From positions 1 to 22,087 of the IMG/VR virus record IMGVR_UViG_3300042468_000403: DNA of 22,087 bases; one strand, given 5' to 3'. The notes beneath the pieces are model-generated. The model was not told the DNA's origin. It made no database searches and was given only the letters and a program-made list of their open reading frames with translations. The number at the start of each line of letters is the position of its first letter. Position 1 is the first letter of the stretch. The position numbers and the translations under genes are program-made. Positions 10,912 through 11,468 of the stretch are shown here, in pieces. This stretch comes from a virus.

Positions 10912-11159
10912 CCCTGCCCCCTCAATACGCCTCGGCCATTCGGAAGCATCTTTGTGCTGCACTCCCTGATCATCGGTGCTCGATAGCAGCCACGATTCTC
11001 TGGAGGATCAGGCCGTTCCATGCGGATCGATTCCGCCAGCCCGATCGTTGTTTCAGTGCCCCAAATCTCTTCCAGTGATGGATCTCGCGTCATTGGCTTG
11101 TGGCCTGCTGGAGCGTGTAGCCTGTTTGATTTTTTCCCGGCTTTCTTGCGTCGTGTCAT
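10908..11159 (-). CDS. hypothetical small basic protein, 83 aa
   Basis: The N-terminus is strongly basic (MTRRKKAGKKSNRLHAPAGH), followed by an acidic middle (DPSLEEIWGTETTIGLAESI) and a second part rich in Pro, Arg and Cys (ERPDPPENRGCYRAPMIREC). It may bind nucleic acid through the basic tail, but no fold is recognised. Both ends overlap the neighbours by 4 bp (ATGA), placing it firmly in the operon between csrA and the resolvase. Confidence 0.6.
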   Translation of the reverse strand: MTRRKKAGKKSNRLHAPAGHKPMTRDPSLEEIWGTETTIGLAESIRMERPDPPENRGCYRAPMIRECSTKMLPNGRGVLRGQG

Positions 11160-11434
11160 TGAGGTTTCCTCCGCATCAGTTCGCCGGGGAGTCGCTCACC
11201 AATTCGCACGACGGATGAAATCTCTGGACGCTCTGGCTTCTTCCAGATTCCATGAACCGCTTTCGAATCTGCGATCTCTTTGCGGTCAATCGTGATTGAT
11301 CTGTCAGCGATAATTCCGAGCCTAACTTTGTCAGCTCGAATCTCATTGACGTTCAGCGTGATTTGCTGAGGCACTGAAGATGCCGGAATGTCAAAGATGA
11401 TTTTTTCGTCAAGCTTCCGAGTTAAAACTAAGAT
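11156..11434 (-). CDS. csrA: CsrA-family RNA-binding regulator, ATC start codon
   Basis: 92 residues opening with LVLTRKLDEKIIF after the initiator, the hallmark first strand of CsrA (compare MLILTRR in E. coli), then ITLNVNEIRADKVRLGIIAD and ITIDRKEI. L4, R6 and the Arg of DRKEI match the RNA-contacting residues of CsrA. Relative to E. coli the loop after strand 1 is longer, and there is a C-terminal extension of about 30 residues. GGAGG ends 6 nt before an ATC at 11432-11434, exactly where ATG is expected. Back to an in-frame upstream stop there is no ATG, GTG or TTG. The first standard start inside (GTG at 11372-11374) would delete strand 1. The site TACGGAGG also resembles a CsrA target (ACGGA), so autoregulation is plausible. 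ATG-to-ATC mutation or sequence error is the alternative. Confidence 0.8.
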   Translation of the reverse strand: MLVLTRKLDEKIIFDIPASSVPQQITLNVNEIRADKVRLGIIADRSITIDRKEIADSKAVHGIWKKPERPEISSVVRIGERLPGELMRRKPQ

Positions 11435-11468
11435 GGCACACCTCCGTAGAAAAACAAAAACACGATAG

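Follow-up and report, generated by a model that had tools for sequence, protein, structure and literature searches.

Can a phage csrA gene start at ATC, i.e. at AUC in the mRNA, or does such a codon point to a sequencing error, a decaying gene or a start that lies elsewhere? The question is raised by a gene in the window, the whole stretch of 22,087 bases analysed here, a virus record that also encodes a DnaB-like helicase, a primase, a Holliday-junction resolvase, a tape measure protein and tail genes. The gene and its surroundings comprise the following features:

11156 to 11434, minus strand: csrA-like gene, 92 amino acids plus stop, with matches to PF02599 and PHROG 9500
11432 to 11434, minus strand: putative initiation codon ATC of csrA (Met1 position), kept in 6/6 close relatives
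11439 to 11445, minus strand: extended Shine-Dalgarno (SD) sequence GGAGGTG, a 7-base match to the anti-SD, duplex energy -14.4 kcal/mol
11498 to 11500, minus strand: in-frame TAA upstream of csrA, read directly from the sequence
11372 to 11374, minus strand: GTG, the first standard in-frame start codon, csrA codon 21
10908 to 11159, minus strand: next gene, 83 amino acids, its ATG overlapping the csrA stop (ATGA)

All duplex energies were calculated against what we take to be the anti-SD sequence.

Proteins of the CsrA family are domain-swapped dimers that bind GGA RNA. The window protein matches the Pfam family CsrA (PF02599) with 44.8 bits (cut-off 27) and an E value of 1.2e-11, and PHROG 9500 (CsrA-like) with 2.1e-6, which bears out the csrA homology claimed in a preliminary description of this DNA. 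By eye, its sequence (ILVLTRK...TIDRKEIA) has L4 and R6 as well as an arginine matching R44 in position; we take these three to be the RNA-binding residues in the numbering of E. coli CsrA. It shares these residues and both family matches with the CsrA/RsmA family and phage CsrA-like genes, but differs in its start, as the CsrA/RsmA members seen here mostly begin with ATG, GTG or TTG. A phmmer search gave no PDB match at E 0.001, and the characterised phages gave only two weak tblastn matches.

The minus strand at the csrA start reads TCTAC, GGAGG (11445-11441), TGTGCC and ATC (11434-11432), followed by TTA-GTT-TTA-ACT-CGG-AAG, i.e. 6 bases separate GGAGG from an ATC at the Met1 position, just as had been described. 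The frame upstream is also as claimed: between the TAA at 11500-11498 and ATC there are 21 open codons, none of them ATG, GTG or TTG. The open frame encodes 113 amino acids in total, 92 of which belong to CsrA, and ends in a TGA with its last base at 11156. As the ATG of the next gene overlaps this stop, the two genes may be translationally coupled.

A search of viral contigs for relatives of the window csrA returned 30 loci. Six of them (L002-L007) all have ATC together with an identical GGAGGTGTGCC and encode proteins near-identical to that of the window. Their DNA in and around csrA is 88-92% identical to the window, and between codons 2 and 60 of csrA each shows 10 synonymous and 0 non-synonymous codon differences from it (3/0 in codons 2-20, 7/0 in codons 21-60); thus, they are not copies of the window's assembly. 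This bears on the view, considered in the preliminary description, that ATC is an error or a mutated ATG, be it from sequencing or assembly or as the broken start of a dying gene. A single base separates ATG from ATC, and the relatives L008 and L009 have canonical starts, but the same ATC is present in six contigs despite 8-12% DNA difference, codons 2-60 show synonymous differences only, with purifying selection reaching into codons 2-20, and the same class of codon occupies the same place in independent lineages, as described below. We therefore consider an error or a broken start practically eliminated. ATG in relatives, which would have spoken against a natural ATC, does exist, but only in the next clade and not in the close one (6/6 ATC): L008 has ATG (70% identity) and L009 GTG (69%), both behind another leader with AAAGGA, and the other 22 of the 30 loci start with ATG. 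Since the next relatives combine ATG or GTG with a different leader, ATC plus strong SD looks, by sequence, like a derived state of the window clade.

The same comparisons bear on a start at GTG 11374-11372, with the conserved upstream part being untranslated or regulatory. This GTG is indeed the first standard codon in the frame, as had been pointed out, but codons 2-20 evolve as coding sequence, with synonymous/non-synonymous differences of 7/3 against L008 and 12/2 against L009 in addition to the 3/0 against L002, and strand 1, with both L4 and R6, would be missing from the product. A start at codon 21 is thus hardly conceivable.

Immediately upstream of the ribosome binding site of csrA lies a further conserved element:

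11473 to 11532, minus strand: conserved hairpin whose 13-bp stem pairs 11532-11520 with 11485-11473, with TTTT after it, from folding and covariation

The 147-nt fold of this region has a z score of -4.04. In 16 aligned leaders (window, L002, L008-L010, L013, L017-L019, L021, L022, L024, L026 and L028-L030) all 13 stem pairs are kept in 16/16, and 7/13 show changes on both sides. The hairpin occurs with ATG as well as with ATC starts and is thus unconnected to the start codon; it may be a terminator, an attenuator or a processing site. Between 11100 and 12000 we found no Rfam family at E up to 1, no sigma-70 promoter and a single terminator-like site, at 11999-11978, away from csrA. L010 is 85-94% identical to the window (10466-11755) in the flanks, including the hairpin, and in the last ~50 bases of csrA, with 43% of the residues of the csrA body being alike.

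Codons of the AUH type (AUU, AUC or AUA) at the Met1 position are also found in other phage csrA lineages. A DNA pattern combining GGAGG, a spacer, ATH and the initial codons of CsrA found 24 viral loci, including further csrA lineages that have ATT or ATC. A codon-neutral scan, allowing any of the 48 NNH codons at Met1, found 29 loci, 8 of which are not csrA and 21 of which have a CsrA body. In 18/21 the Met1 codon is ATH, spread over about five protein lineages (six of the window type, nine of the L038/L047 type, and L036, L043 and L066), and the remaining three (GCA, ACA and GCA) have ATG one codon earlier. Hence, ATH is present in 18/18 cases without an adjacent ATG, the chance expectation being 3/48 per independent case. 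At an internal position other codons would be expected as well. L043 stands alone, all 16 of its relatives having ATG or GTG. Since only genes with a GGAG (or AAGG) SD and a consensus CsrA start fit the scan patterns, the counts are minimum values, and further AUH cases may have escaped the scans. Behind AAGG without GGAG no AUH csrA was found, the 8 loci being 7 csrA genes, each of which has GGAG as well, and L330, a non-csrA hit. Canonical starts were counted in the first 80 of at least 120 loci, with overlapping matches counted apart, and the matches listed comprise 78 ATG, 5 GTG and 1 TTG (at least 45 amino acids) plus 1 short ATG.

A near-minimal pair links the two kinds of start: L291 (...cacggaggctacagca-GTG) and L047 (...cacggaggctacagcc-ATT) have near-identical leaders, ending in ...ggcatcaaatcaaacgcatcacggaggctacagca-GTG and ...ggcatcaaatcaaacgcatcacggaggctacagcc-ATT, respectively, and near-identical proteins, and L217, L245 and L297 have ATG behind a similar leader. 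One leader can also precede different CsrA bodies (L047 vs L051/L055, all ATT), and one type of CsrA body is found behind two leaders (L051 vs L038, both ATT).

Translation might, however, start further upstream at a non-standard codon, yielding an extended CsrA in which ATC encodes isoleucine and ATT, ATC and ATA are synonymous variants. The frame has 21 open codons before ATC in the window and 37 in L002, and L048 has an in-frame ATG 7 codons upstream at a place where L038 has CTG. On the other hand, the SD spacing fits ATC, ATT (L047) and GTG (L291) interchange within one leader, codons other than ATH do not occur without an adjacent ATG, and in the bacterial copies L140 and L166, described below, a stop closes the frame two codons ahead of ATT, all of which makes an upstream start very improbable. 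An upstream in-frame canonical codon is absent in 15/18 of the viral AUH csrA genes; in the other three, L048 (ATG, 7 codons), L043 (ATG, 9 codons) and L066 (TTG, 12 codons), the sequence would permit an N-terminal extension. The natural AUC start behind a strong SD that the preliminary description had proposed is backed by the six relatives, by purifying selection and by the recurrence in other csrA lineages. Thus, the window csrA appears to have a natural AUC start, which is probably the one used in vivo, and with it a full-length product.

Two further candidates were rejected. The GTGTG within the SD region offers two GTG codons, but both lie outside the csrA frame, in frames that end after few codons, and no more than one base from the SD; L047 has no GTGTG. 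Likewise, no tRNA, and hence no phage initiator tRNA with another anticodon, was found in the window or in the 11 scanned of the 30 relative loci.

Scanning 84,980 species genomes of bacteria and archaea yielded 64 stretches, 47 of which were set aside as chance hits by ORF length and protein appearance. The 17 judged to be csrA belong to the Leptospirillum class (14), Planctomycetota (2) and Clostridia (1). Within the Leptospirillum class csrA is present in 19/21 genomes, and its 20 copies start with ATT (17), ATA (1) or ATG (2). L140 and L166 carry a TGA in frame within the SD region, two codons ahead of ATT, which renders an upstream start impossible there; L150 has an in-frame standard codon further upstream, and the leaders of L170 and L176 lack GGAG. 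A long C-terminal CsrA extension (218-233 amino acids in total) is seen in L146-L148, L150, L168-L172 and L174-L176.

As controls from the same class, the L36 genes start with ATG in 10/10 and the HU genes with ATG or GTG in 23/23 anchored starts, i.e. 30 loci minus three unanchored (L360, L364, L368), two in the wrong frame (L379, L385) and two apparently N-terminally extended (L377, L378). On these grounds we rejected the view that Leptospirillia use AUH starts in general. infC has ATT or ATC wherever its start is readable (about two thirds of 21 loci). Among the four families checked in this one class AUH is specific to csrA (and infC).

The cases outside this class are the chromosome of Adhaeretor mobilis (ATA), a Planctomyces MAG (ATC) and a Clostridiaceae MAG (ATA; L086, the one genome searched in its family). 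In Planctomycetota the AUH csrA pattern is found in 1/392 genomes and is thus no general trait there. The A. mobilis genome has 13 CsrA-family matches, one with an internal TGA, and the Planctomyces MAG has 8.

A quickly built tree comprising 171 CsrA proteins (58 columns), from a hand-picked subset of loci and with 101/160 branches open, needs 11 changes of the AUH label, at least 5 of which are forced by starred branches. AUH csrA probably arose several times in phages, in at least two and probably about five lineages; in the Leptospirillum class it would be ancestral or nearly so, and in Planctomycetota and Clostridia sporadic. Moreover, the AUH starts are accompanied by strong SDs. Without correction for ancestry, the mean SD duplex energy is -12.9 kcal/mol for AUH leaders (n=20, dereplicated) and -10.2 kcal/mol for canonical leaders (n=107, all chosen for GGAG; p 1.6e-5), and the longest exact SD match shows no clear difference (6.55 vs 5.95 bases, p 0.07). 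A C at position -1 is found in 16/20 AUH and 31/107 canonical leaders (p 2.6e-5, ancestry uncorrected). According to a study of start-codon evolution, weaker start codons go along with stronger SDs (PMC5622118).

This association might have arisen by drift, AUH having entered where the start codon is near-neutral owing to a strong SD, with no regulatory meaning. The strong SDs themselves would be in line with this, as would the fact that csrA, judged by sequence, is an exchanged cassette in phages that are mosaics. Yet the same study counts switches to AUU at only 1/61,358 ancestral AUG and 1/5,080 GUG codons (PMC5622118), as compared to the 11 changes in the csrA tree, and across the Leptospirillum class 18/20 csrA copies are AUH. 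We thus regard drift as unlikely, though by no means negligible.

We consider it highly probable that csrA translation is initiated with fMet at AUH, that the extended SD compensates for the weak codon, that CsrA synthesis is thereby held low and that this arrangement had several origins. The extended SD GGAGGTG would hold the 30S subunit on the csrA leader, fMet-tRNA would pair with the first two bases of AUC (11434-11432), and the product would be the full-length fMet-LVLTRK... with CsrA strand 1 intact. As AUH is a poor P-site partner, CsrA output should stay below the AUG level and be subject to IF3 discrimination, i.e. AUC would give a fraction of the AUG yield and IF3 would discriminate against the AUC start of csrA, and the low CsrA dose may be a selected trait. 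The recurrence of weak starts behind strong SDs suggests that CsrA output is limited at translation start. For S. aureus genes that combine an AUU or AUA start with an extended SD, ~10% of the AUG level was reported, with up to 30% for one gene in rich medium (PMC13009471).

Beyond holding output low, AUH may constitute a regulatory link, in that CsrA output is set by IF3 level or initiation fidelity in concert with CsrA bound to the GGA within the SD, comparable to the way infC works for IF3. infC likewise has ATT or ATC in Leptospirillia, IF3 represses the non-standard GTC start of Streptomyces sigR as well as infC itself (PMC5472188), and E. coli CsrA represses its own leader by binding over the SD (PMC7652899). 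By analogy, the AUH-start csrA may also be CsrA-sensitive. The local fold of the ribosome binding site, however, is no better than that of shuffles (z -0.57 and +0.71), and the GGA of the SD is not located in any loop and is partly paired with the start region. The idea that the SD is a CsrA target, put forward in the preliminary description, has GGA as its sole support, a motif present in any GGAGG, and we rate the regulatory link as a possibility with the odds somewhat against it.

The low-output start proposed here for csrA has its closest counterpart in infC, which has an AUH start and a strong SD that are phylogenetically kept; it starts with ATT in E. coli, with ATC in Streptomyces (PMC5472188) and with AUA in S. 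aureus (PMC13009471). infC is autoregulated by IF3 itself, whereas csrA encodes an mRNA-binding regulator, so that any IF3 loop would be indirect. Also from S. aureus, ccpN (AUA) and cvfC1 (AUU), a regulator and a small regulator-like gene, have an extended SD and are conserved beyond one strain (PMC13009471); their proteins are unrelated to CsrA, and their starts were demonstrated by ribosome profiling and reporters, whereas the csrA start is known from sequence. In Streptomyces sigR the non-standard start keeps a regulator scarce, as we propose for csrA, but the codon is GTC and not AUH, the product is a sigma factor and the effect was shown experimentally (PMC5472188). We tentatively speculate, with the balance tilted against it, that csrA joins infC as a gene repeatedly brought under an AUH start in evolution, AUH making CsrA synthesis depend on IF3 level and initiation fidelity so that the condition of the translation machinery would dose a global translational regulator, and that phage cassettes deliver a small, host-tuned amount of CsrA.

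Non-standard start codons are generally regarded as great rarities, with few of them proven. We found no report of a csrA gene with an AUH start in a literature search covering mostly journals outside subscription. Gene finders that accept only ATG, GTG and TTG would truncate or miss such csrA genes, the RNA-binding strand being lost, and isolates of Leptospirillum allow the AUH start to be tested without the phage. The recurrence spans phages and a whole bacterial class, Leptospirillum, and if AUH indeed recurs in a second regulator family besides infC, the start codon itself would be a regulatory dial under selection.
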